Assembly: GCA_013360575.1 (NCBI GenBank) | Contig: JABWBG010000051.1 | Location: 1-32,137, forward strand | Source: Caldilineales bacterium | GTDB taxonomy: Bacteria > Chloroflexota > Anaerolineae > J102 | DNA: 32,137 nucleotides | Direction: 5' to 3' | In this document: positions 1,715 through 27,048 of the stretch, one piece after another | Layout of the letters: each line of letters opens with the position of its first letter | Numbering within the stretch: position 1 is the first letter of the stretch | Made by a program: the position numbers and the translations under genes | The notes under the pieces: model-generated | The model's database searches: none | Seen by the model: the letters and a program-made list of their open reading frames with translations, nothing else | Told to the model about the DNA's origin: nothing

Positions 1715-3568
1715 ATGAACGCACCCCCGTCCACCCACTTCGGCAAATACGAGATCCTGGGCGAGTTGGGCCGGGGCGGGTTCGCCACGGTCTACCGCGC
1801 TCGCGACGCCACGCTCGACCGGGAAGTGGCGCTGAAGGTGCTGGCGCCGCATCTGCTGTGGGAACCTTCGTTCAGCGAGCGCTTTTTGCAGGAGGCGCGG
1901 CTGGCCGCCAGCCTGGCCCACCCTGCCATCCTCACCATCTACGAGGTGGGCGAGCAAGAGAGCCAGATGTACATGGCCGCCGAGTTATGGGAAGGCGGCT
2001 CGCTGCGCGATCTGTTGCAGCATGCCGGCCCCTTGCCCCCGCCGCAAGCCCTGGATATCCTGCGCCAGGTCGCCCGCGGGCTGGATTTCGCGCACCGCCG
2101 CGGCCTGGTGCACCGCGATGTCAAGCCAGGCAACATCCTGCTGCGCGCCCTGCCAGAGGGGGATGCGGAGGGCGTGCAGGCGGTGCTGGCCGATTTCGGC
2201 CTGGTCAAGGCCCTCAGCCACAACACCGCCCTGACCACAACCGGTGCCCTGCTGGGCACCGCCGAATATATGGCCCCGGAACAGATCGAGCCGGAACTGG
2301 CCGATTTAGGCCCGCACACCGACATCTACGCCCTGGGCGTGGTGGCCTATCAGATGCTGACCGGCGTCGTGCCCTTTGCCGGCACCACCACGCAGGTGAC
2401 GCACGCGCACGTGCACAAGCCGCCGCAGCCGCCGCATCAGCGCCGCGCGGATCTGCCCGCGGCAGCCTCGGACGCGATCTTGCAGGCGCTGGCCAAAAAC
2501 CCACAGGCCCGCTTTGGCACGGCCACGGCCTTCATCCAGGCTCTGGCCGCGGGCTTCGCGCCTCTGCCTGAAACGGTCAAGCCCCCGCCGGCAAAAGGGG
2601 CGCCGGCAGAACTGCTGCCGCCTGCCGCGCCCACGCGGGACAGGCAGGAGCGGCGTTTCACGCTGCCCCCTCTGAAGCTGCCCCGCCCGCGCACCCTCGC
2701 GCTGCTCCTGCTGGTGCTGGCGGTGATCGGGGCCGCGGGTTGGCTGGCCTGGGGAGGCTGGCAGCGTCTTTTCTCCCCGCCGATGGCCGCCATCTATTTC
2801 ACATCCACCCGCGAGGGCAAACGGGGCATCTATCGTATCGATGCCAGCGGCGCGGTGGTGCTCGTCTTGCAGAGCGCCAGCACGGTGGAGGAGTGGCTGC
2901 CCACGCTGGAAGCGCCCCGCGGCGCCCTCTATTTCAACAGCAATCGCACCGGAACGAGCGAGATCTTCACCCTGGAACAGGGGGGATCGCTGCTGCAAGT
3001 CACCCAGACCCCCAACGGGCGGAGCAGCACCGGGCCGGTGCACGGGCCCAACGGCGATCTCTATTTCACTTCCAACCGCAGTGGCCGCTACGAAGTCTAT
3101 CATCTCTCTGTCCAGGGCGAGACCGTGGCGGTGACGAAAACCACCCCGCGCGGCCACAGCCGCAACCCCGCGCTTGCGCCCGATGGCTCTCTCTTTTTCG
3201 ATTCCACCCGCGAGGGGCCCCGCGAAATCTATCGTCTGGACACGGCGGGCGTGGTGCATCGCATCACCCACAGTCCGACCAGCGCCGGCAGCTACGAGCC
3301 GGCGTTCAGCGCCGCCGGTGTGCTCTATTTCACCTCCGACCGCTCCGGCAAACGGGAGATCTACCGTCTGGCTGGGGGCGAGGCGCAGGCGATGACCGAA
3401 ACGAAAGGCCAGGGGGAGAGCTGGTCACCGGTTGCGGCCAGTGACGGCGCCATCTATTTCACTTCCACCCGCACCGGCAAGCGCGAGGTGTTCCGCCTGG
3501 AGGCCCAGGGCAGGATCACGCAAATCACCAACACGCCGGGCGCGGGCGAGAGTTTTCTGGGAGGGTGA
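1715..3568 (+). CDS. PknB-like Ser/Thr protein kinase with six-repeat propeller sensor
   Basis: A 617-residue transmembrane Ser/Thr kinase. The kinase domain covers about residues 12-285: glycine loop GRGGFATV (20-26), Lys41 in ALK, helix-C Glu60, catalytic HRDVKPGN (Asp135), DFG 160-162 and APE 187-189, so all catalytic residues are present. A Pro-rich juxtamembrane segment leads to one helix (about 325-348). The outside part holds six repeats of the type IYFTSTREGKREIYRL, as expected for a small six-bladed propeller. The start ATG leaves only ~11 residues before the kinase domain, usual for the family. It lies between two related membrane proteins, with the next gene 3 bases downstream. Ligand and substrates cannot be read from the sequence. 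Its 5' end shares a 66-base exact match with the next kinase. Confidence 0.93.
   Translation: MNAPPSTHFGKYEILGELGRGGFATVYRARDATLDREVALKVLAPHLLWEPSFSERFLQEARLAASLAHPAILTIYEVGEQESQMYMAAELWEGGSLRDLLQHAGPLPPPQALDILRQVARGLDFAHRRGLVHRDVKPGNILLRALPEGDAEGVQAVLADFGLVKALSHNTALTTTGALLGTAEYMAPEQIEPELADLGPHTDIYALGVVAYQMLTGVVPFAGTTTQVTHAHVHKPPQPPHQRRADLPAAASDAILQALAKNPQARFGTATAFIQALAAGFAPLPETVKPPPAKGAPAELLPPAAPTRDRQERRFTLPPLKLPRPRTLALLLLVLAVIGAAGWLAWGGWQRLFSPPMAAIYFTSTREGKRGIYRIDASGAVVLVLQSASTVEEWLPTLEAPRGALYFNSNRTGTSEIFTLEQGGSLLQVTQTPNGRSSTGPVHGPNGDLYFTSNRSGRYEVYHLSVQGETVAVTKTTPRGHSRNPALAPDGSLFFDSTREGPREIYRLDTAGVVHRITHSPTSAGSYEPAFSAAGVLYFTSDRSGKREIYRLAGGEAQAMTETKGQGESWSPVAASDGAIYFTSTRTGKREVFRLEAQGRITQITNTPGAGESFLGG
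1742..1807 (+). repeat. 66-bp exact repeat, copy 1 (kinase glycine-loop segment)
   Basis: Bases 1742-1807 are identical to 3596-3661. Both encode the glycine-rich loop region of the two adjacent kinases, including synonymous positions, while the flanking codons diverge. This looks like recent duplication or gene conversion confined to this segment. Confidence 0.95.
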
Positions 3569-3571
3569 GCG

Positions 3572-5653
3572 ATGCACACAGCGCCCAAGCAGTTTGGCAA
3601 ATACGAGATCCTGGGCGAGTTGGGCCGGGGCGGGTTCGCCACGGTCTACCGCGCTCGCGACACGCGGCTGGGCCGCCAGACCGCGCTGAAGATCCTGGAT
3701 CCGGCCCGGAGTTGGGAGTCTGATTTCGCCGCCCGCTTTCTGCAGGAAGCCCAGGCCGCCGCCCAGCTCAAACACCCCCACATCATCACCATCTACGAGA
3801 TCGATGAGGTGGAGGGGCAACTGTTCATCGCCATGGAGTTGATCGAGGGTGGCAGCCTGCGCGACTATCTGCAAGCGGGGACGAGTGCGCTGGATGTGGG
3901 GGAAACGAGGGCCCTGCTGGCCCCGGTGGCCGCGGCCCTGGATCACGCGCATGCCCACGGCATGGTGCACCGCGACGTCAAGCCCGCCAACATCCTCCTC
4001 GACAGGATGAACGATGGTTCGGTGCGGGCGGTGCTCAGCGATTTTGGCATGGTGAAGGCGCTGGCGCAGAGCACGGAACTGACGCAATCGGGCGCCATCC
4101 TGGGCACGGTGGAATACATGGCGCCGGAGCAGGGAGACACGGCCCGCGCGCACGAGATCGGCCCCGCCGCCGACATCTACGCCCTGGGCGTGACCGCTTA
4201 TCACCTGCTCACCGGGCAGGTGCCCTTCACTGGCAGCACGGTGCAGGTGCTGATGGCCCACGCCAGCAAGCCGCCGCAGCCGCCGCATGAATTGCGCGCC
4301 GACCTGCCCCCTGCTGTCTCCGAAGCTATCTTGTGCGCGCTGGCCAAGCAACCGGGCGAGCGATTTCCTACGGCCCGCGCCTTTGTGCAGGCCCTGGCTG
4401 CGGCAGAGCCGCCTCCGCCCGAACCGGCCAAGCCACTGCCGGCAGAACCACTGCCGCTGCCGCTCGCGCCGGCCAAGCGCGAGCGCGGCCCCCTGCCCAT
4501 CGCCGCGGTGATCGTGGTAGTGCTGGTCGCCAGCATCTTGTGGGGGGCGCGGGCTATTGTGCTGCGCCGGCAACTGCCGACCTCGCGGGCCACGATCACG
4601 CCTGTTGCAATCGACTGCGACGCCATGGTCGCCACAGTCAGCGCCCTGAGCAACCAGAACAACTGCGAAAGCGCGGTGGCCGGCGCCGATGCGGCCATCG
4701 CCGCCGGCTGCCAGGATCGCTCGCTGTGGGAGAACCGGGCGATCTGCTACACCATGCTGGGGAAGGTGGATGCGGCGCTGGCCGATTTCGCCACAGCCCT
4801 GGATATGAACCCCGGCGACGCCTGGACCTATATCAACCGATCGTATGCGTACGAGAAGCAGGGGCGGCTGCCAGAAGCGCTGGCCGACCTGACCCAGGCG
4901 ATCACGCTGCAACCGGGCAACGCCGGCTTCTATTTCACCCGCGCTCACATCTACAAGCAACTGGCGCAGTTGAAAGATGCGCTGGCCGACCTGACCGCAG
5001 CCATCGACCTGGAGCCGGCCAACGCCGAGTACTACCTCAACCGCGGGGATCTGTATGAGAGGCTGGGCGAGTTGCCGGCAGCCGCGGCAGATTTCGAGCG
5101 GTTCGTGGCCCTGACCGCGGGCGACGACGCCTGGACGGACTATCGCGCGGCCCGCCAACAGTGGTTGCAGAGCTATCAGGCCGGTTTGGCGACGCTCATG
5201 CCGGCGACCACCGCCACGCCCATCAGCACGAGCACAGCGATTCCGCCCACGGCCACGCCCGCGCAGCCGGCGGCCCGGGTCAACAGCGTCGCCAACGTGC
5301 GCAGCGGCCCCGGCACGCAGTACGATCGCATCGGTGTGGCTGCCGCCGGCCAACGGTTCGATATCACGGGCAAGAACGGGGCGGAAACATGGTGGCAGAT
5401 CGATTTCAATGGCCGCGCGGGCTGGCTTTTCGCGGATCTGGTCAGCGCCGCGGGAGATTTGGGCCGCGTGTCTGTGGCGCCCGCGCCGCCCACACCCACG
5501 CGCGTCCCACCCACCGCCACGCCCATCCCGCCCACACCCACGCCTATCCCACCCACACCCGTTCCCCCCACCGCTACGACCGTTCCCCCCACGTCTGCGC
5601 CGCCCACCCCCACACCCGTCCCGCCGGCGACGCCCACCGCCGCGCCGCCCTAA
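3572..5653 (+). CDS. PknB-like Ser/Thr protein kinase with TPR and SH3 domains
   Basis: A 693-residue kinase with a different sensor from its neighbour. The kinase domain (about 11-280) has the glycine loop GRGGFATV (19-25), Lys40, HRDVKPAN (Asp135), DFG from Asp157 and EYMAPEQ. A Pro-rich linker precedes one membrane helix (about 308-330). Outside are three to four TPR-like repeats (about 350-520, for example NRGDLYERLGELPAAAADFE), then a bacterial SH3 domain (about 565-628, with NVRSGPGTQYDRIG and GWLFADLV). The C-terminus is a Pro/Thr tail of PPTATP type that may span the cell wall. SH3_3 domains often bind peptidoglycan, so wall-stress sensing is plausible but inferred. The ATG lies 3 bases after the previous stop (TGAGCGATG), implying translational coupling. 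Confidence 0.93.
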   Translation: MHTAPKQFGKYEILGELGRGGFATVYRARDTRLGRQTALKILDPARSWESDFAARFLQEAQAAAQLKHPHIITIYEIDEVEGQLFIAMELIEGGSLRDYLQAGTSALDVGETRALLAPVAAALDHAHAHGMVHRDVKPANILLDRMNDGSVRAVLSDFGMVKALAQSTELTQSGAILGTVEYMAPEQGDTARAHEIGPAADIYALGVTAYHLLTGQVPFTGSTVQVLMAHASKPPQPPHELRADLPPAVSEAILCALAKQPGERFPTARAFVQALAAAEPPPPEPAKPLPAEPLPLPLAPAKRERGPLPIAAVIVVVLVASILWGARAIVLRRQLPTSRATITPVAIDCDAMVATVSALSNQNNCESAVAGADAAIAAGCQDRSLWENRAICYTMLGKVDAALADFATALDMNPGDAWTYINRSYAYEKQGRLPEALADLTQAITLQPGNAGFYFTRAHIYKQLAQLKDALADLTAAIDLEPANAEYYLNRGDLYERLGELPAAAADFERFVALTAGDDAWTDYRAARQQWLQSYQAGLATLMPATTATPISTSTAIPPTATPAQPAARVNSVANVRSGPGTQYDRIGVAAAGQRFDITGKNGAETWWQIDFNGRAGWLFADLVSAAGDLGRVSVAPAPPTPTRVPPTATPIPPTPTPIPPTPVPPTATTVPPTSAPPTPTPVPPATPTAAPP
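3596..3661 (+). repeat. 66-bp exact repeat, copy 2 (kinase glycine-loop segment)
   Basis: Identical to 1742-1807 in the upstream kinase gene. The rest of the two kinase domains is similar but clearly diverged at the DNA level. Confidence 0.95.
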
Positions 5654-16196: not shown

Positions 16197-16661
16197 ATGA
16201 CCGAAAGCGTGATCATGCAACCGCAAATTGCGGCCAAAAACCCCAATAAAAAGATCAAATTCCTGGTTGGCGGCGTCCTGATCGTCGCTGCCATCCTCTA
16301 CCTGATCGTCACCAGCATCAGCGCCACCGGCGCCTATTACATGTCCGTCTCGGAGCTGAATAGCCAGGGAGCGGAGATCGTGGGCCGAAAGGTGCGCGTG
16401 TCCGGGCCGATCGTGCCCGAAAGCGAGCAGTGGGACGCGCCCAACCTGATGCTCAACTTCAAGATGACCGATGACAGCGGCGAACAGATGGTTGTCAGCT
16501 TTCATGGCAGCCGTCCCAGCAACTTCAGCATGGCCACCGAAGCGATCATCGAAGGGGAAATGACCGACGCCGGCGTATTTCGCGCCGATCACCTCATGCT
16601 CAAATGCCCCTCGCGCTACGAAGAAGCCCCCGAAGTGACTGAATTTACGGCCATCCAATAA
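16197..16661 (+). CDS. ccmE: Cytochrome c-type biogenesis heme chaperone CcmE, CxxxY variant
   Basis: A 154-residue membrane-anchored heme chaperone of cytochrome c maturation System I. N-terminal helix about residues 20-42 (KFLVGGVLIVAAILYLIVTS). The OB-fold domain has the family pattern: YYMSVSEL, GRKVRVSGPIV, VSFHGSRPSNF and EGEMTDAGVFRADHLMLK. At the heme-attachment site the usual HxxxY is replaced by Cys137-P-S-R-Tyr141. CxxxY forms of CcmE are known from archaea and some sulfate reducers, so this is a natural variant and not a broken gene. GAGG at 16186-16189 sets the ATG at 16197. It heads the cluster behind a likely CRP/FNR site. Confidence 0.92.
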   Translation: MTESVIMQPQIAAKNPNKKIKFLVGGVLIVAAILYLIVTSISATGAYYMSVSELNSQGAEIVGRKVRVSGPIVPESEQWDAPNLMLNFKMTDDSGEQMVVSFHGSRPSNFSMATEAIIEGEMTDAGVFRADHLMLKCPSRYEEAPEVTEFTAIQ

Positions 16662-16761: not shown

Positions 16762-18021
16762 ATGCACGCATCCTCCATCCACCGCATTGGCAGCGTCCGC
16801 GCCGCGCTGCTCCTGACCCTGCTCGCGCTCTCTCTTCTCCTGGCCCCGTCCGCGCTGGCGCAGAGCGAGGTCAGCGGGCCTGGCGTCCTCGACGTGCTGA
16901 TCAGCAACCCCAACAGCGGCGAAACGCCCGACGGACTGCCCCTCTTCCTGTGGATCATCGACGGCGAAAACCTGGTGGGCAGCCGCACAGGCGAAACCGC
17001 CGACGGCCGCGCCCGTTTCGACAACCTGCCCACCGCCGCCAACTGGGCCTACGTCGTACAGGTCGAATACAACGGCGTGCCTTTTAGCAGCGATCTGGTG
17101 CAGTTCAACAGCGGCGAAAGCCTGCTGACCCTGCCCCTGAACATCTACGACGGCGGCGCCAGCAGCGCCGACATCCGCATCAGCCGCGGGCATTGGGTTG
17201 TCAACATCGTCTCGCCGCACAGCATCGATGTGGGCGAACTGTACGCACTGACCAACGGCAGCGACCGCGTGTTCATGGGCGATGGCGGCGATCCCTCCCA
17301 CGTCCTCGCCTTTCACCTCCCCCCCAATGCCACCGATATCAGCTTCGAGGATGGCGCCCTGGGCGAACGCTACGTGCAGGTCGGAGACATCCTCTATGAC
17401 ACCCTGCCCATGCCCCCCGGCCAGCGCCAGATCTTCTTCCGCTACACCCTGCCGGTGACAGAGGAACGCGTGACTCTGACGCACGCCATTGCCTACGCCA
17501 CCGCCACCCTCAACCTGCTGGCGCCCGACCTGGGCGCCACTGTGGAAGCGCCGGGCTGGACGCAAGGGGAGCCGCGGCAGACCGCCGGCGGTGCCTATCT
17601 CAACTTCACCCTCAACAACCTGGCGGCCAACGAAACACCGCAGGCGAGCCTCAGCAACCTCAGCGCCGCCACCTTCACCGCCACCGACAGCGCCGCGGCC
17701 CCGGCCGTCAGCGCCAACAGCCAGGTGGTCGACGCCGAAGCCACGCCCGGCCTCTCCGGCCAACCCTTCTTGCCGATCCTGGTGGCGATTCTCTCCCTGG
17801 CCGCGCTGGGCGGGGGGCTGCTCTTCGCCCTCAACCGCTACCGCGCCCAGGCCGCGGCCGCGCCCAGACGCCGCCAACAACTGCAAGAGGCGCTGATCGA
17901 AGAAATGGCCGCGCTGGACGACGCCTACGAAGAGGGCGAGGTCGGCGCCGCCGCCTACGCCACCGAGCGCCGCCTGCTGAAAACGCGGCTGGCCGCGCTG
18001 ATGACCGGACAGCACGCATGA
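16762..18021 (+). CDS. Membrane protein of unknown function in the ccm cluster, with CcmI-like cytoplasmic tail
   Basis: A 419-residue protein. An N-terminal signal segment (AALLLTLLALSLLLAPSALA, about 14-33) precedes an extracytoplasmic beta-rich region of ~310 residues. Its start resembles a carboxypeptidase-regulatory or transthyretin-like fold (GETADGRARFDNLPTAANW). A single helix (about 336-358) leads to a charged cytoplasmic tail containing EMAALDDAYEEGEVGAAAY and ERRLLKTRLAAL. That tail pattern (short coiled coil, E-x-G, Y, then R-x-L-K) recalls short tails of CcmI-like proteins. The stop overlaps the ccmA start (ATGA), so it is translationally coupled to the heme transporter. It has no heme-handling WWD motif and no CxxC, so it is not CcmF or CcmH. 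Function unknown; an accessory role in cytochrome maturation is inferred from position. Confidence 0.8.
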   Translation: MHASSIHRIGSVRAALLLTLLALSLLLAPSALAQSEVSGPGVLDVLISNPNSGETPDGLPLFLWIIDGENLVGSRTGETADGRARFDNLPTAANWAYVVQVEYNGVPFSSDLVQFNSGESLLTLPLNIYDGGASSADIRISRGHWVVNIVSPHSIDVGELYALTNGSDRVFMGDGGDPSHVLAFHLPPNATDISFEDGALGERYVQVGDILYDTLPMPPGQRQIFFRYTLPVTEERVTLTHAIAYATATLNLLAPDLGATVEAPGWTQGEPRQTAGGAYLNFTLNNLAANETPQASLSNLSAATFTATDSAAAPAVSANSQVVDAEATPGLSGQPFLPILVAILSLAALGGGLLFALNRYRAQAAAAPRRRQQLQEALIEEMAALDDAYEEGEVGAAAYATERRLLKTRLAALMTGQHA

Positions 18022-18740
18022 CAACCGATCCCCTGATCGAGATCGCCGGTCTGCAAAAAGCCTTTGGCCGCCACCGCGTCCTGCGCGGGATCGATCTCGC
18101 CATCCCCGCGGGGTCGGCCATCGCCCTGTACGGGCCGAACGGGGCCGGCAAAACCACCCTGCTGCGCATCCTGGCCACCCTCTCCCGGCCCACCGGGGGC
18201 AGCGTGCGCGTGGCCGGTGTGGATATCGCCGCCAACCCGGAGGGCATCCGCCAACATCTTGGCCTGGTGGGCCACGCGCCCCTGCTCTACGATGACCTCA
18301 GCGCCGCCGAAAACCTGGGCTTCTACGCCCGGCTCTATGGCCTGCCCGCAGCCGATGCCCGCATCGCCGATCTGTTGCAGCGGGTGGGGCTGTACGAGCG
18401 CCGCCGCGATCTGGTACGCACTTTTTCGCGGGGCATGGTGCAACGCCTGGCCATTGCCCGCGCCCTCCTGCACGATCCCGCCATCCTCCTGCTGGATGAG
18501 CCGGACACCGGGCTGGACCCGCAGGCGGCGGAGAGGATGACCGCGCTGCTGCGCGAGCTGGGGGGCAGCGCCCGCACCATCCTCATGACCACCCACCATC
18601 TGGAACGGGGCCTGGATCTGGCCGACCGCGTGCTGATCCTGGCCGGGGGCCGGCTGGTTTTCGACGCGTCCGCGGCCACGCTTGACGCTGCCGGCCTGCG
18701 CCCTCTCTACGATCACTACGTGGGCACGGGGGCGGCATGA
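18018..18740 (+). CDS. ccmA: Cytochrome c maturation ABC transporter ATP-binding protein CcmA
   Basis: A 240-residue ATPase of the CcmABC complex, which releases heme-loaded CcmE. Walker A GPNGAGKTT (39-47), signature FSRGMVQRLAIARA, Walker B LLLDEPDTGLDP and switch His in TTHHLERG. Length is near the family norm of ~205-240. Its ATG overlaps the preceding stop and its own stop overlaps ccmB (ATGA at 18737), indicating tight coupling. Confidence 0.94.
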   Translation: MTTDPLIEIAGLQKAFGRHRVLRGIDLAIPAGSAIALYGPNGAGKTTLLRILATLSRPTGGSVRVAGVDIAANPEGIRQHLGLVGHAPLLYDDLSAAENLGFYARLYGLPAADARIADLLQRVGLYERRRDLVRTFSRGMVQRLAIARALLHDPAILLLDEPDTGLDPQAAERMTALLRELGGSARTILMTTHHLERGLDLADRVLILAGGRLVFDASAATLDAAGLRPLYDHYVGTGAA

Positions 18741-19411
18741 AGCGCTATCTGCAGGTGATCTGGGCGGTGTTGTGGAAGGATCTGCGCATCGAATCGCGCA
18801 CCAAGGATGTGTTCACCAGCATGGCGGTATTTGCTGTGCTGGCCCTACTCATCTTCAACTTCGCCTTCGAGCTGCGTGTGCCCGACAAGGCGATGGTGAC
18901 GCCAGGCGTGCTGTGGGTGACGGTGGCCTTTGCCGGCGTGCTGGGCCTGGGCCGGGCCTTTATCACCGAAAAGGACAAAGGCAGCCTGGCCGGGCTGTTG
19001 CTGGCCCCGGTCGACCGCAGCGCCGTCTATTTTGGCAAGATGTTGGCCAATCTGCTCTTCATCCTCGTGGTGGAATTGTTCCTGTTGCCGCTGATCACGA
19101 TCTTTTTCAATGTCCCCCTGATCACGCCTGCTTTGTTACTGATCCTGCTATTGGGTACAATTGGCTTCGCCGCGGTGGGCACCACCTTCTCGGCCCTTGC
19201 TGTCAACACCCGCGCCCGCGAGGTGCTGCTGCCGGTGCTGCTCTTTCCGGTGATGTTGCCGGTGCTGGTGGCGGGCATCCGCTCCACCATCGGTCTGCTG
19301 GAGGGCGACACCCTGGCCGACCTCGGCAACTGGCTACAGCTTTTTCTCTTCTACGATCTGCTTTTCCTCGTCGTGGCCTTCCTCACCTTCGATTACGTGG
19401 TCGAAGAATAA
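18737..19411 (+). CDS. ccmB: Heme exporter membrane protein CcmB
   Basis: A 224-residue integral membrane protein with six predicted helices, partner of CcmA and CcmC. The N-terminus WAVLWKDLRIESRTKDVFTS and the segment EKDKGSLAGLLLAPVDRSAV are typical of CcmB. The start overlaps ccmA by four bases. A 290-base repeat-filled gap separates it from ccmC. Confidence 0.94.
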   Translation: MKRYLQVIWAVLWKDLRIESRTKDVFTSMAVFAVLALLIFNFAFELRVPDKAMVTPGVLWVTVAFAGVLGLGRAFITEKDKGSLAGLLLAPVDRSAVYFGKMLANLLFILVVELFLLPLITIFFNVPLITPALLLILLLGTIGFAAVGTTFSALAVNTRAREVLLPVLLFPVMLPVLVAGIRSTIGLLEGDTLADLGNWLQLFLFYDLLFLVVAFLTFDYVVEE

Positions 19412-19701: not shown

Positions 19702-20394
19702 ATGGGCCCTTCTCGTCGCCTGGTTGCAGGCCTCAACCTCCTTGCCCTCCTGGCCATGCTGGCCGCCATCTACATGGCGTTGGTGCAGGCGCCAGACGCC
19801 ACCAACATCGTGCCCGAAATCCGCCCGGCGCAGCGCATCATCTACTTCCACGTGCCCGCCGCCTGGGTGAGTATGCTGGCCTTCCTCGTCACCTTCCTGG
19901 CCAGCCTGCTCTATCTGCGCAGCAGCCACGTGCGCTGGGACATCTGGGCGCGTTCCTCCGCCGAGATCGGCATCGGCTTCACCCTGGCGGCGATAGCCAG
20001 CGGCTCGATCTGGGCCAAGCCGGCCTGGAACACCTGGTGGACTTGGGACCCCCGGCTGACCACCTACACCATCGTGCTGCTGCTCTACATCGCCTACTTC
20101 ATGCTGCGCTCGGCCATCGACGAGCCGGGCCGCCGCGCCCGTTTTGGCGCGGTCTATGGCATCTTCGCCTTTCTCAGCGTGCCCCTCACCTTCATGTCCA
20201 TCCGCTGGTGGAACACCATCCACCCCGTCATCCTCGACCCCAGCGCGGATTTCGGCCTCGGCCCCGGCATGACCCTGGCCTTCGTCTTCGGCAACATTGC
20301 CTTCTCCATCCTCTATTTCGCGCTGCTTGCCAACCGCCTGCGCCTGGAATGGACCGTCGAACGCGTCGCCGCCCTACGCGAACACCTGCTCTAA
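19702..20394 (+). CDS. ccmC: Heme exporter/handling protein CcmC
   Basis: A 230-residue polytopic membrane protein with six helices that loads heme onto CcmE. The WWD heme-handling motif is present (WNTWWTWDPRLTT), with the two flanking ligand histidines in IIYFHVPAAW and WWNTIHPV. The ATG at 19702 has only a weak purine site (GGAAACAG) and follows the repeat cluster, so its expression may differ from ccmAB. The length is normal. Confidence 0.95.
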   Translation: MGPSRRLVAGLNLLALLAMLAAIYMALVQAPDATNIVPEIRPAQRIIYFHVPAAWVSMLAFLVTFLASLLYLRSSHVRWDIWARSSAEIGIGFTLAAIASGSIWAKPAWNTWWTWDPRLTTYTIVLLLYIAYFMLRSAIDEPGRRARFGAVYGIFAFLSVPLTFMSIRWWNTIHPVILDPSADFGLGPGMTLAFVFGNIAFSILYFALLANRLRLEWTVERVAALREHLL

Positions 20395-20453: not shown

Positions 20454-20591
20454 ATGATCTACCTTGTTGCCGCGTACGTAGTCATCTGGCTGGTGGTTTT
20501 CGGCCTGATCTTCAACATGCACCGCCGCCAGGCGCAGTTGGATAGCGAATTGCAAATGCTGGAAGAGATCGCCAATCGCCCCAAAGGCTGA
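20454..20591 (+). CDS. ccmD: CcmD-like small membrane protein
   Basis: A 45-residue ORF: one helix (IYLVAAYVVIWLVVFGLIF) followed by a charged helix HRRQAQLDSELQMLEEIA. This is the size, topology and position of CcmD, which holds CcmE on the CcmABC complex. AGGA at 20442-20445 lies 8 bases before the ATG. CcmD proteins are poorly conserved, so the call rests on form and location. Confidence 0.8.
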   Translation: MIYLVAAYVVIWLVVFGLIFNMHRRQAQLDSELQMLEEIANRPKG

Positions 20592-20671
20592 TCGCCCCCC
20601 GATTTGCCCGCGCTGACGTAAGCAAATCGCTCCTCGCGCAGACAAAGAGAAACAGCAACAGAGCACACACC

Positions 20672-20697
20672 GCGGCGCGGCCTGCACCCCGCGCCGC
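20672..20697 (+). promoter_or_regulatory. GC-rich hairpin just upstream of ccdA
   Basis: GCGGCGCGG (20672-20680) and CCGCGCCGC (20689-20697) form a perfect 9-bp stem with an 8-base loop, ending ~11 bases before the AAGGAT ribosome site of ccdA. There is no T-tract, so translation control or mRNA stability is more likely than termination. Role inferred. Confidence 0.4.
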
Positions 20698-20719
20698 GCC
20701 ACGTCCCAAGGATCTCACC

Positions 20720-21763
20720 GTGCCCCACGTCCATTCCCGCGCCACCTTTTTCCACGCCCTCGCCCTCGTCGCCGGCTTCAGCCTCGTCTTCACCCTGCTC
20801 GGCGCTTCGGTGGGGCTGCTCGGCGGCTACGCCCTCTACGACATCCTGCCCGCGGTCGTGCGCGTGGGCGGCATTTTGCTGGTCATCTTCGCCCTGCGCG
20901 TCGCACATCTGCGCCTGAGCCTGGCGGGCTGGCTGGCCGTCGCCCTCCTCCTCGGCGGCGTCACCTACCTGCTCAACCGCTTCCCCTTCGATCCCAGCTT
21001 CCGCTACATCAACGCCGGCATCATCGCCCTGACCATCCTCTCCGGCGCCCGCTGGGATCGGCTGCCCCTGGCTATCTTCGCCCTGCTCATCGGCCTGCTC
21101 AGTTGGATCACCAGCGACAGCCTGCTGCCCGCGGTGCGCATCGTCGAAACCCTGCTGATCATCGCCGTCATCTTCTTCGGCAACCGCACCGACCTGTTCG
21201 ATCGCGAACTGCGCCTGGACATGGGCGGGCGTTTCGGCGGCAAGGCCTCCTATTGGCGCAGCGGCTTGGTCGGCGTCATCTTCGCGGCCGGCTGGACGCC
21301 CTGCGTCGGCCCCATCCTCTCCGGCATCCTCCTCCTTGCCTCGCAAACACAGACGGTGGGCCAGGGCGCGCTCCTGCTCGCCGCCTATTCTGCCGGCCTG
21401 GGCATCCCATTTCTGATCGCCGGCGCCCTTTTCTCCCGGCTGGCGGTGCATCTGCCCCGTTTCTACCGCCACCTGCCCACCATCAGCCTGATCAGCGGCC
21501 TGCTGCTGTTGCTGATCGGCCTGCTGATCTTCACCGACAGCCTGGCCCAACTGGCCCAGCTCGGTTTCCTCTTCAACCTGGAAGAGGGCCTGGCGCCTGA
21601 ATCCATCTCGCAGATCACCCTGCTGCTCGCCTTCCTGGCCGGCGGCATCTCCTTCCTCTCACCTTGCGTGCTGCCGCTGGTGCCGGCCTATCTCGGCTAC
21701 CTCAGCGGCGCCGCGCTGGGCAGCGGCAGAGGCCAGCCCAGCGGCCAAGCCGCCATCGCCTGA
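20720..21763 (+). CDS. ccdA: CcdA/DsbD-type thiol-disulfide transporter with permuted domain order
   Basis: A 347-residue polytopic protein expected to carry reducing equivalents across the membrane for cytochrome c maturation. The second-Cys motif AAGWTPCVGPILSGIL is in the middle (Cys195). The first-Cys motif, normally near the N-terminus, is at the very C-terminus: SFLSPCVLPLVPAYLGYLSG (Cys316). The protein starts instead with FFHALALVAGFSLVFTLLGA, which in ordinary CcdA follows the first-Cys helix. Joining the C-terminus to the N-terminus would restore the normal order. An additional ~80 hydrophobic residues (about 75-150) lie before the Cys195 region. GTG start at 20720 with AAGGAT 7 bases upstream. 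A TlpA-like thioredoxin gene follows after 3 bases. Family call firm; the permutation is read directly from the motifs. Confidence 0.88.
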   Translation: MPHVHSRATFFHALALVAGFSLVFTLLGASVGLLGGYALYDILPAVVRVGGILLVIFALRVAHLRLSLAGWLAVALLLGGVTYLLNRFPFDPSFRYINAGIIALTILSGARWDRLPLAIFALLIGLLSWITSDSLLPAVRIVETLLIIAVIFFGNRTDLFDRELRLDMGGRFGGKASYWRSGLVGVIFAAGWTPCVGPILSGILLLASQTQTVGQGALLLAAYSAGLGIPFLIAGALFSRLAVHLPRFYRHLPTISLISGLLLLLIGLLIFTDSLAQLAQLGFLFNLEEGLAPESISQITLLLAFLAGGISFLSPCVLPLVPAYLGYLSGAALGSGRGQPSGQAAIA

Positions 21764-21766
21764 GCC

Positions 21767-22399
21767 ATGACCTCCCTTCCCACGGGCCAGACCACGCCTG
21801 AACCCCTCTCCCGGCGCAAACAAGCGCTGTTCGCCGCCATGATCGCAGCCGGCGTGCTGCTGGCCCTGCTGGCCTGGCAACTCAGCCGCGGCCCGGCCCC
21901 CGATCTGGCCACCGATCTGCAATTCGTCGAGGGCGCGTTCCCCGTGGCCAGCCTCTTCCGCATCGACAACCGCAGCGCCCAGCCCGACGCCGGCCACCCC
22001 GCCCCCGATTTCGCCATCCACCCGCCAGAAGGGGGCAACCTCACCCTGGCCGACTACCGCGGCCGCCCGGTGGTGATCAATTTCTGGGCCACCTGGTGCG
22101 GGCCTTGCCGCCTGGAAATGCCCGATCTGGTGCGGCTGCACGAAACCTATCGCGATCAGGATCTGGTCATCCTCGAGATCAACGTAGCCGAATCGCACAA
22201 CGCCGTGGCCGCGTTCGTGGCCGAATTTGGCATGACCATGCCGGTCATCCTCGACCCGCGCGGGGATATCCAGGCCGCTTACAAAACCCAATCCCTGCCC
22301 GCCACCTTCTTCATCGACCGGGCAGGCGTGATCCAACTGCGCTGGATCGGCCTGATCACCCCCGACATGCTGGAACAAGGTGTGCGCAACATCCTCTGA
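21767..22399 (+). CDS. Membrane-anchored TlpA/ResA-like thioredoxin
   Basis: A 210-residue protein with an N-terminal anchor helix (about 20-40) and an AhpC/TSA-Redoxin-type thioredoxin domain. Active site WATWCGPC (Cys111, Cys114), cis-Pro in SLPATFFIDRAG. Proteins of this type reduce apocytochrome c CXXCH thiols outside the membrane, drawing electrons from CcdA. The start lies 3 bases after the ccdA stop. It could act as CcmG/ResA; which name is right cannot be decided from sequence alone. Confidence 0.9.
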   Translation: MTSLPTGQTTPEPLSRRKQALFAAMIAAGVLLALLAWQLSRGPAPDLATDLQFVEGAFPVASLFRIDNRSAQPDAGHPAPDFAIHPPEGGNLTLADYRGRPVVINFWATWCGPCRLEMPDLVRLHETYRDQDLVILEINVAESHNAVAAFVAEFGMTMPVILDPRGDIQAAYKTQSLPATFFIDRAGVIQLRWIGLITPDMLEQGVRNIL

Positions 22400-24579: not shown

Positions 24580-24730
24580 TTTTTTGTTTTTTAATCACAA
24601 AGGCAGCAAAAAATGCAAAAGATGTAGAATATTTTTTGTAGGTCATAAGATGTATCGGCGTGAAAGTAGCGCCACTGAGACCATAAAACGAATGAACAAT
24701 ATCCCACGATCTACAAGGACCAAGCCAACC

Positions 24731-25165
24731 ATGCCGATAGAGACCTCTTTTCGTATCAACAGCCCCCACGTCATCGCCGAAGTCATCGAAGACGAGGCGA
24801 TTATCGTCAATCTGGACAGCGGCGCCTATTACAGCCTGCGCGACGCCGGCGCCCTCATTTGGCGCCTGATCGAACAGGGCGCGGCCTTTCCGCAACTTGT
24901 CGGCGAGCTAGCGCAGCGCTACGAAGGAACCGAAGCCGGCATCGCAGCGGGCGCGCGCAATCTGATCGCCGAATTGCAGGGCGAGGGATTGATCCTCGCT
25001 GGCCAGGCAGCCGCGCCGGGCGCCTTCTCCTTGCCTGCGCACAACGGCCGCCCCCCTTTCCAACCGCCGGCGCTGGAAAAATACACTGATATGGCCGACC
25101 TGCTCCTGCTCGACCCCATCCACGAGGTGGACGAGGGGCAGGGCTGGCCCGCGCCGCGGCGATAA
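24731..25165 (+). CDS. PqqD-family protein with C-terminal peptide-like tail
   Basis: A 144-residue protein. Residues ~5-95 form a PqqD-like domain (VIAEVIEDEAIIVNLDSGAY, YYSLRDAGALIWRLIEQG, RNLIAELQGEGLI), the fold used as a RiPP recognition element that binds leader peptides. A Pro-rich bridge leads to a tail (112-144) with PPALEKYTDMADLLLLDPIH followed by EVDEGQGWP. This tail is not part of canonical PqqD and has the look of a short conserved peptide motif. AAGGA at 24715-24719 supports the ATG at 24731; an in-frame ATG at 24692 is the alternative. The preceding 150 bases are AT-rich and non-coding. An ABC exporter follows after 8 bases. A RiPP-like role is inference. Confidence 0.8.
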   Translation: MPIETSFRINSPHVIAEVIEDEAIIVNLDSGAYYSLRDAGALIWRLIEQGAAFPQLVGELAQRYEGTEAGIAAGARNLIAELQGEGLILAGQAAAPGAFSLPAHNGRPPFQPPALEKYTDMADLLLLDPIHEVDEGQGWPAPRR

Positions 25166-25173
25166 GGGCAGGC

Positions 25174-27048
25174 ATGTTTTCTCCCGGCAGGGCCACCAAA
25201 TTGTACGACGCCAGGGCGCAGCAACTGGCCTCCCCGCGCGGTCAGTTGGCCCAACTGCGCTACGTGCCCCGCGCCTTACGCCTGGTCTGGAAGGCTGCCT
25301 CTGGCTGGAGTCTGGCTTCGACCGCGCTGTTGGTGATCCAGGGCCTGCTGCCGGTCGTCACCGTCTATCTGACCCGCACCCTGGTCAATGCCCTGGTTTC
25401 GGTGGTGGAGAGTGGCGGCAATCAGGCAGCCTTGCAGCCGGCCCTGAGCGCCATCTTGCTGTTGGGCGGGGTGATCCTGGCCGGTGAGCTGTTGGGCAGC
25501 GTCCAGGCCTATGTGCGTTTGCTGCTGGCCGAACGCACACAGGATCACATGAACGACCTGATCCACGACAAGGCCATCGCTCTGGATCTGCACTTCTTCG
25601 AATCGCCGACCTATTACGACCAATTGCAACGGGCCAGCATCGATGCCGTCGACCGGCCCCTGGGCCTGCTGGAAAGCCTGAACAGCCTGTTGCAAAACGC
25701 CATCACCCTGGCAGCGATGGCCGGCGTGCTGCTCACCTTTGCCTGGTGGATGCCCCTGGTGCTGCTGGCGGGCACCCTGCCGGCGTTGTGGGCCGCCTTG
25801 CAGGCCACTGTGCTCTTTCACAAGTGGCGGCTGGTCAACACCACCAACCAGCGCCGGCTGCTCTACTATAGCCGTTCGCTTTCTCTGGAACAGGCCGCGG
25901 CCGAAATGCGGCTGTTTGCTCTGGGCGAGCATTTCAAACAGGCCTACAACAGCCTGCGCCGCCGCTTGCGCCAGGAGCGGTTGGGGCTGTTTCGGCGGCA
26001 GATGGCCGCGCAGATGGCCGCCAGCCTGGCCGGGCTGCTCAGCCTGGCCCTGGCCCTGGGCTGGATGGCCTGGCAGTCCTTGGTCGGCCGCTTCAATCTG
26101 GGCGATCTGGCTATGTTCTGGCAGGCGATGAGCCAGGGCCAACGGCTGATGCGCGGCCTGCTCACCGGTTTCAACGATATCTACCGCAATTTGCTCTTTC
26201 TGGAAGATTTGTTCACTTTCCTGGATCTGAGGCCCACGCTGAAGGATCCGGCCCAGCCGCAGCCGCTGGCCCCCGGCTTGCAGCAGGGCATCGCCGTCGA
26301 GGCGGTGACCTTTGCCTACCCTGCCAGCGAGAACAAAGCATTGCAGATGTTCTCGCTGGCCATCCCCGCCGGCCAGATCGTGGCCATCGTGGGCGAGAAT
26401 GGCGCGGGCAAGAGCACCTTGCTCAAGCTGCTTTGCCGCTTTTATGACCCGCAGGAAGGCCGCATCACCTGGGATGGCGTGGATCTGCGTCATCTGGCCC
26501 AGGCCGACCTGCGCCGGCGCATCACCGTGCTCTTCCAGCAGCCTTTCCCCTACCACGACAGCGTGGCCGACAACATCCGCTTCGGCGATCTGGCCGCGCT
26601 GCCGGATCGGGCGCGCATCGAACAGGCGGCCGGCGCGGCCGCGGCGGAGGAGATCATCCGCCGCCTGCCGCAGGGCTACGACACGATCCTGGGCAAGTGG
26701 TTCGGCTACACCGAGTTGAGCGTGGGCGAGTGGCAGCGGCTGGCGCTGGCCCGCGCCTTCGTGCGCCAGGCCGACCTGGTGATCCTGGACGAGCCGACCA
26801 GCGCCATGGACAGTTGGGCCGAGGCCGCGTGGATGGCCCGCTTCCGCGAGTTGGTAGCCGGCCGCACCGCGCTGATCATCACCCACCGCTTCACGACAGC
26901 GATGCAGGCCGACGTGATCCACGTGATGCACGCGGGCCGCATCGTCGAATCGGGCACGCACGCCGAATTGGTGGCGTTGGGCGGGCGCTACGCCGCGTCC
27001 TGGCGGGCGCAGATGCGGGAGGCGGGGGGCGGCGCTCCCGTGATATAG
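25174..27048 (+). CDS. ABC transporter, fused permease and ATPase (exporter type)
   Basis: A 624-residue half-transporter. The membrane domain with about six helices spans residues ~40-330. The nucleotide-binding domain has Walker A GENGAGKST (407-415), signature LSVGEWQR (515-522, a variant of LSGGQ), Walker B VILDEPTS (Asp539, Glu540) and switch His571. There is no N-terminal C39 peptidase domain, so any leader removal would need another enzyme. It is expected to act as a homodimer exporting a lipid-linked glycan, peptide or small molecule. Genes on either side suggest export of the cluster product. Confidence 0.93.
   Translation: MFSPGRATKLYDARAQQLASPRGQLAQLRYVPRALRLVWKAASGWSLASTALLVIQGLLPVVTVYLTRTLVNALVSVVESGGNQAALQPALSAILLLGGVILAGELLGSVQAYVRLLLAERTQDHMNDLIHDKAIALDLHFFESPTYYDQLQRASIDAVDRPLGLLESLNSLLQNAITLAAMAGVLLTFAWWMPLVLLAGTLPALWAALQATVLFHKWRLVNTTNQRRLLYYSRSLSLEQAAAEMRLFALGEHFKQAYNSLRRRLRQERLGLFRRQMAAQMAASLAGLLSLALALGWMAWQSLVGRFNLGDLAMFWQAMSQGQRLMRGLLTGFNDIYRNLLFLEDLFTFLDLRPTLKDPAQPQPLAPGLQQGIAVEAVTFAYPASENKALQMFSLAIPAGQIVAIVGENGAGKSTLLKLLCRFYDPQEGRITWDGVDLRHLAQADLRRRITVLFQQPFPYHDSVADNIRFGDLAALPDRARIEQAAGAAAAEEIIRRLPQGYDTILGKWFGYTELSVGEWQRLALARAFVRQADLVILDEPTSAMDSWAEAAWMARFRELVAGRTALIITHRFTTAMQADVIHVMHAGRIVESGTHAELVALGGRYAASWRAQMREAGGGAPVI

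Follow-up and report, generated by a model that had tools for sequence, protein, structure and literature searches.

Organization of the locus

We analyzed a window of 32,137 nucleotides, the whole of the DNA stretch considered here (contig JABWBG010000051.1 of a Caldilineales bacterium). Its forward strand carries a CcdA-like gene among cytochrome c maturation genes, in agreement with the original prediction that the gene sits in the right operon. The features are given below, the CcdA modules being M1 (TM1), M2 (TM2-TM3), and M3 (TM4-TM6).

16197..16661, + strand: ccmE, heme chaperone with a CPSRY motif (Cys variant)
16762..18021, + strand: 419-aa ORF following ccmE and preceding ccmA; apparent signal peptide, C-terminal helix
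18018..18740, + strand: ABC ATPase, CcmA by position
18737..19411, + strand: ccmB
19702..20394, + strand: ccmC (Cytochrom_C_asm)
20454..20591, + strand: 45-aa single-TM ORF without a Pfam match, CcmD-like by position and shape
20592..20719, + strand: stretch 5' of ccdA, without a TM1/SPC helix in the ccdA frame
20720..21763, + strand: ccdA, 347 aa, permuted order TM2-TM3-[4-helix insert]-TM4-TM5-TM6-TM1
20744..20911, + strand: module M2 (residues 9-64), N-terminal here, FHALALVAGFSLVF
20912..21229, + strand: insert at the TM3/TM4 joint (residues 65-170), four predicted helices
21257..21559, + strand: module M3 (residues 180-280), GWTPCVGP, Cys195 codon at 21302-21304
21560..21604, + strand: TM6-TM1 linker onto the relocated TM1, predicted to be periplasmic from permuted relatives
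21605..21724, + strand: module M1 (residues 296-335), moved from the N to the C terminus, FLSPCVLPLVPAYLGYLSG, Cys316 codon at 21665-21667
21767..22399, + strand: resA/ccmG-like gene, 3 bp downstream of ccdA; its product, a thioredoxin with a membrane anchor (WCGPC), presumably accepts the electrons

The ccdA gene starts with GTG; no other start codon occurs from the upstream stop to the first helix, and AAGGA lies just 5' of the GTG. The ORF at 16762-18021 had no Pfam or NCBIfam match and is perhaps a lineage-specific maturation component. The window CcmE has Cys where the heme-binding His is usual, and a System I* type CcmE with this replacement has been reported for some Chloroflexi (PMC3601427). 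Farther downstream, positions 24584-27048 encode a 624-aa ABC transporter preceded by a PqqD-like protein, which may form part of a peptide natural-product cluster.

A CcdA homolog with TM1 at its C terminus

In a phmmer comparison with Thermus thermophilus CcdA (PDB 5vkv), the window protein aligned in three stretches in rotated order (whole-protein E=5e-23): residues 10-65 with chain positions 40-94 (TM2-3), residues 172-278 with positions 103-206 (TM4-6), and residues 299-331 with positions 3-35 (TM1). The ORF also matches Pfam DsbD_TM (PF02683) at 49.8 bits, the cutoff being 27.1, while the PRK00293.1 match (23 bits; cutoff 330) is limited to residues 183-279. The protein consists of 347 aa of membrane protein only, without the fused periplasmic alpha and gamma domains of full DsbD. 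Both active-site PC motifs are present, with C316 in TM1 (SPCVLPL) and C195 in TM4 (GWTPCxGP); the positions of the two cysteines and the intactness of the motif residues are thus as originally proposed.

The linear order TM1, TM2-3, TM4-6 is true of characterized CcdA members, though it is not required for CcdA homology, and it is not the order of the window protein. On these alignments, the protein is a circularly permuted homolog of CcdA in the DsbD_TM superfamily, and among the features tested it departs from CcdA/DsbD-beta in linear order only. The form of the permutation differs from the one first envisaged: the two half-repeats had been taken to be swapped, a reading that we reject because TM1 alone has moved, giving the order TM2-3, TM4-6, TM1.

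Permuted orders recur in Chloroflexota

We built profile HMMs for the three modules and used them to determine the module order at each locus fetched. Among 229 distinct sequences, 121 have the ordinary order M1-M2-M3, 96 have the order M2-M3-M1 of the window protein, and 12 have a further order, M3-M1-M2. A related-locus search with the single window protein as query gave no matches, and the same search with an alignment as query gave 80 named loci, through which alone phyla beyond Chloroflexota were sampled; within this limited sample, all loci from other named phyla have the ordinary order. Carriers of M2-M3-M1 are mostly or all Chloroflexota and span many genera and several families; the named loci with a permuted ccdA include L181 (Anaerolineales), while L099 and L137, both from genome G115 of the window's class (probably Anaerolineae), have modules identical to those of L172 (Candidatus Roseilinea). 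Two records without a phylum name, L162 (bacterium FW021_bin.48) and L158 (uncultured bacterium), also hold a permuted CcdA, and L162 forms a long branch that might fall outside Chloroflexota.

All full-length homologs of the window's family share the order of the window protein within a single open frame, and in genomes G003, G004, and G005 a second, shorter permuted paralog without the insert stands beside the full-length homolog. Across 91 aligned permuted sequences, C195, C316, and the flanking P, S, G, and W residues are invariant, and module conservation in the permuted forms matches that in the ordinary forms. The search for SPCVLP near the C terminus of CcdA-like ORFs in Chloroflexota that had been proposed as a check was in effect carried out by this survey, with a strongly positive result. 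Some genomes of family f27 (G045 and G317; loci L078, L081, and L076) have two or three permuted CcdA copies and one ordinary copy.

This recurrence bears on whether the gene could be an artefact of assembly, frameshift, or gene calling, in which an otherwise normal ccdA was stripped of its first codons and had a piece of another copy attached to its end. The window genome is a 403-contig draft, which leaves room for such errors, but the order is repeated in 96 distinct sequences, some of them in single-contig genomes (L076 and L081 of G045, L084 of G029), with a conserved C-terminal helix. Moreover, no first-Cys helix was found in the 58 in-frame residues 5' of the ccdA start, and nothing else TM1-like lies upstream. 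Misassembly or a missing N-terminal segment, which had been named as a finding that would overturn the prediction, is excluded on these grounds, as is mere coincidence, and we consider the chance of an artefact negligible. The permuted alignment to 5vkv and the recurrence of the order in homologs together bear out the central claim, namely, that CcdA has truly been circularly permuted here, and the relatives across the phylum show the rearrangement to be old.

The M3-M1-M2 order (TM4-6, TM1, TM2-3) is a true half-swap, and its 12 carriers belong mainly to a Chloroflexota class other than that of the window. These genes are, by locus:

L163 (Chloroflexi bacterium SB0661_bin_43), 2962-3747, + strand: M3-M1-M2 CcdA, single ATG-started ORF of 261 aa
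L255, L257, L264-L271, and L273: further M3-M1-M2 loci, by module HMM order

Nothing CcdA-like was found in the other frames at the L163 gene. In the class of G408, M3-M1-M2 is present in family f124 and in further ones, and that class holds both permuted orders. Cyclic orders that correspond to cuts at the terminal joint, at the TM1-TM2 loop, and at the TM3-TM4 loop all exist in one phylum.

The insert between TM3 and TM4

The added hydrophobic segment of the original prediction is present, but it amounts to ~105 residues rather than ~80, with four helices predicted in a model of the window protein (residues 68-85, 92-108, 114-131, and 137-156). Because this number is even, the insert would not invert the helices downstream of it. 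A homologous insert occurs in ordinary-order CcdA proteins (L047-L050, with weaker matches in L051 and L054), and 78 of the 96 M2-M3-M1 proteins have none. The suggestion that the added helices fix the topology of the permuted protein does not hold up, since ordinary-order relatives carry the homologous insert and so many permuted proteins are without it; for the same reasons, the insert is ruled out as a cause or enabler of the permutation. Insert-bearing proteins of both orders cluster together in the tree (support of 66 for all ten and 99.5 for eight), so that in the window's lineage the insert is most simply taken to be older than the permutation.

Module order has changed more than once

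For phylogenetic analysis, the modules were returned to the ordinary order and each was aligned separately, with the insert columns left out. The order changes needed number 11 on a fast tree and 13 on an IQ-TREE mixture-model tree (98 rows). Clade tests used short concatenations of 187-188 columns. Some of the groups were defined once the tree was known, which affects the smaller tests and leaves the overall M2-M3-M1 test untouched. In that overall test, a single clade of all M2-M3-M1 rows was rejected (AU p=1.2e-5), which argues for repeated changes of order in Chloroflexota. The window's long group can be held together as a single clade (p=0.68). Clades that join it to the permuted group of the G408 class (AU p=0.02) or to a second group of its own class (AU p=0.006) are not compatible with the data, these values being indicative because the groups are partly post hoc.

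The order could instead have arisen in a single permutation event for all M2-M3-M1 proteins, with the nested ordinary-order proteins being reversions or products of tree error. Change counts do not separate gain from loss, the data do not contradict a clade of the window's long group plus the closest short permuted group (p=0.17), and the same holds for one origin of the M3-M1-M2 rows (AU p=0.087). We nevertheless regard a single event as unlikely, given the rejection of the one-clade arrangement and the ordinary-order, insert-bearing proteins that join the window's clade with 99.5 support; besides, reversion would itself require repeated permutation. As read from these trees, module order in Chloroflexota is a character that has been altered more than once, and repeated gain or gain plus reversion can be read from the tree equally well.

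Topology and a possible route

Ordinary CcdA has six helices and both termini in the periplasm. Joining the old C terminus to the old N terminus and cutting the cytoplasmic TM1-TM2 loop would give a protein with both ends in the cytoplasm (N-in/C-in) in which the orientation of each helix is unchanged; TM1, with the first active-site Cys, would thereby move to the C terminus, tied to TM6 by a new linker. A second cut, at the TM3-TM4 loop, would give the order TM4-6, TM1, TM2-3. Both permutations should therefore convert an N-out/C-out protein to N-in/C-in with no helix flipped. The likely genetic route would be a tandem ccdA duplication, after which the copies fused in frame and shed their outer parts, and in the fetched loci we found no four-module ORF (M1-M2-M3-M1), no fused intermediate, and no tandem ccdA.

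The charge distribution of the loops is in line with this topology. The TM6-TM1 linker of the permuted sequences has 18-38 residues with ~2.5-3 D/E on average, and its mean K/R content is 0.06 in the long forms and 0.8 in the short and M3-M1-M2 forms; an acidic linker so poor in K/R fits a periplasmic loop. The TM1-TM2 and TM3-TM4 loops are rich in K/R. C-terminal tails of more than 90 residues occur in 9 of 121 ordinary proteins versus 0 of 108 permuted ones, and since thioredoxin-like tails need a C-out terminus, their absence from the permuted proteins agrees with C-in. An AlphaFold model built from 91 permuted sequences reached a pLDDT of 84.7 and a pTM of 0.81, an earlier one from 17 sequences having been poor (pLDDT 68). 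Foldseek, run twice against the PDB, gave no useful score for the model on 5vkv, as a sequential aligner cannot follow the permutation; the fold is thus a predicted one. As for the ordinary-order proteins themselves, L106, L120, and L122 carry a C-terminal ResA/AhpC-TSA-like thioredoxin fusion according to Pfam, and long C-terminal tails are also seen in L166, L168, L174, L194, L196, and L208.

Could the SPC helix belong to a half-protein that works as a dimer or together with a separate N-terminal partner, rather than to a monomeric permutant? The symmetry within CcdA is an inverted one, and the sequence would allow protomers to swap domains. Each chain, however, has the six core helices and the two Cys motifs, once each; the fetched loci showed no free-TM1 gene, and the search of the genome gave no second DsbD_TM gene. 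We consider such an arrangement quite improbable and prefer the monomeric permutant. More broadly, it is probable that Chloroflexota CcdA has been permuted repeatedly at two cytoplasmic loops, yielding three functional arrangements among close relatives, and that the order of the helices is free as long as their orientations are kept, with each permutation turning an N-out/C-out protein into an N-in/C-in one.

Predicted function

The window ccdA is the only DsbD_TM/CcdA-type gene found in its draft genome of 403 contigs, by a search that was positive in 10 of 14 control genomes; genes of family f1 match DsbD_TM mostly over TM4-6. Of 18 long permuted loci, 15 have a gene for a WCxxC thioredoxin on the downstream side. 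From the motifs, the operon, and the sole-copy status we infer a CcdA role, the best-supported one being to supply the ResA-like protein with reducing equivalents of cytoplasmic thioredoxin, in support of cytochrome c maturation. Electrons would pass from cytoplasmic thioredoxin to the Cys195/Cys316 pair and on to the adjacent ResA/CcmG-like protein, a supply that would keep the cysteines of apocytochrome CXXCH motifs reduced.

A CcdA-derived permutant with another job, such as metal or sulfur transport (compare wider relatives such as the NicO-like transporters), is suggested by a nickel/cobalt efflux model of NCBIfam that matches weakly (E=0.036), and the position of L078, a permuted f27 paralog, beside a DsbA-like gene shows that partners differ between subfamilies. 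The invariance of both redox cysteines and an operon with ccmEABC and a ResA-like acceptor make this very unlikely for the window protein. The partners of permuted CcdA paralogs probably do vary. Overall, we assign a probability of roughly 0.88 to the reading that the product of the window gene is a working CcdA, circularly permuted in nature, with TM1 at its C terminus, in a phylum where module order has been altered more than once.

Comparison with known systems

The window protein resembles T. thermophilus CcdA (5vkv) and DsbD-beta in its homologous modules, both Cys-Pro motifs, and its association with a ResA/CcmG-type protein, and like ordinary CcdA and DsbD-beta it is predicted to carry thiol electrons across the membrane. 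It differs from 5vkv and ordinary CcdA in its C-terminal TM1, the new TM6-TM1 linker, and the four-helix insert between TM3 and TM4, and in being predicted N-in/C-in where ordinary CcdA is N-out/C-out. Also close are the ordinary-order CcdA proteins of families f14 and f20 from the window's class (L047-L051 and L054), which share the homologous insert, fall in the same tree clade, and usually have a thioredoxin gene after them, but which are ordered M1-M2-insert-M3 rather than M2-insert-M3-M1.

The existence of three cyclic orders among close relatives makes the role of insertion order in the folding of inverted-repeat membrane proteins testable, as it does the origin of new cyclic orders and the functional equality of N-out/C-out and N-in/C-in versions of one fold. 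In practical terms, linear domain profiles catch permuted CcdA only as fragments, and automatic annotation may label such genes as partial or miss them.

To our knowledge, hardly any natural circular permutations are on record for alpha-helical membrane proteins, and we found no report of a permuted CcdA or DsbD in the open-access literature (subscription papers not covered). The closest precedent is VKOR/DsbB, likewise membrane thiol redox families related by circular permutation, which a 2015 paper presented as the first such case for proteins with alpha-helical membrane domains and explained by duplication and deletion, the direction being undecided (PMC4555120). While VKOR and DsbB are distant families related by one permutation, the CcdA homologs are up to ~64-67% identical over their modules and come in three cyclic orders; and whereas the direction is undecided for VKOR/DsbB, the ordinary CcdA order is seen in all examined loci of other named phyla.
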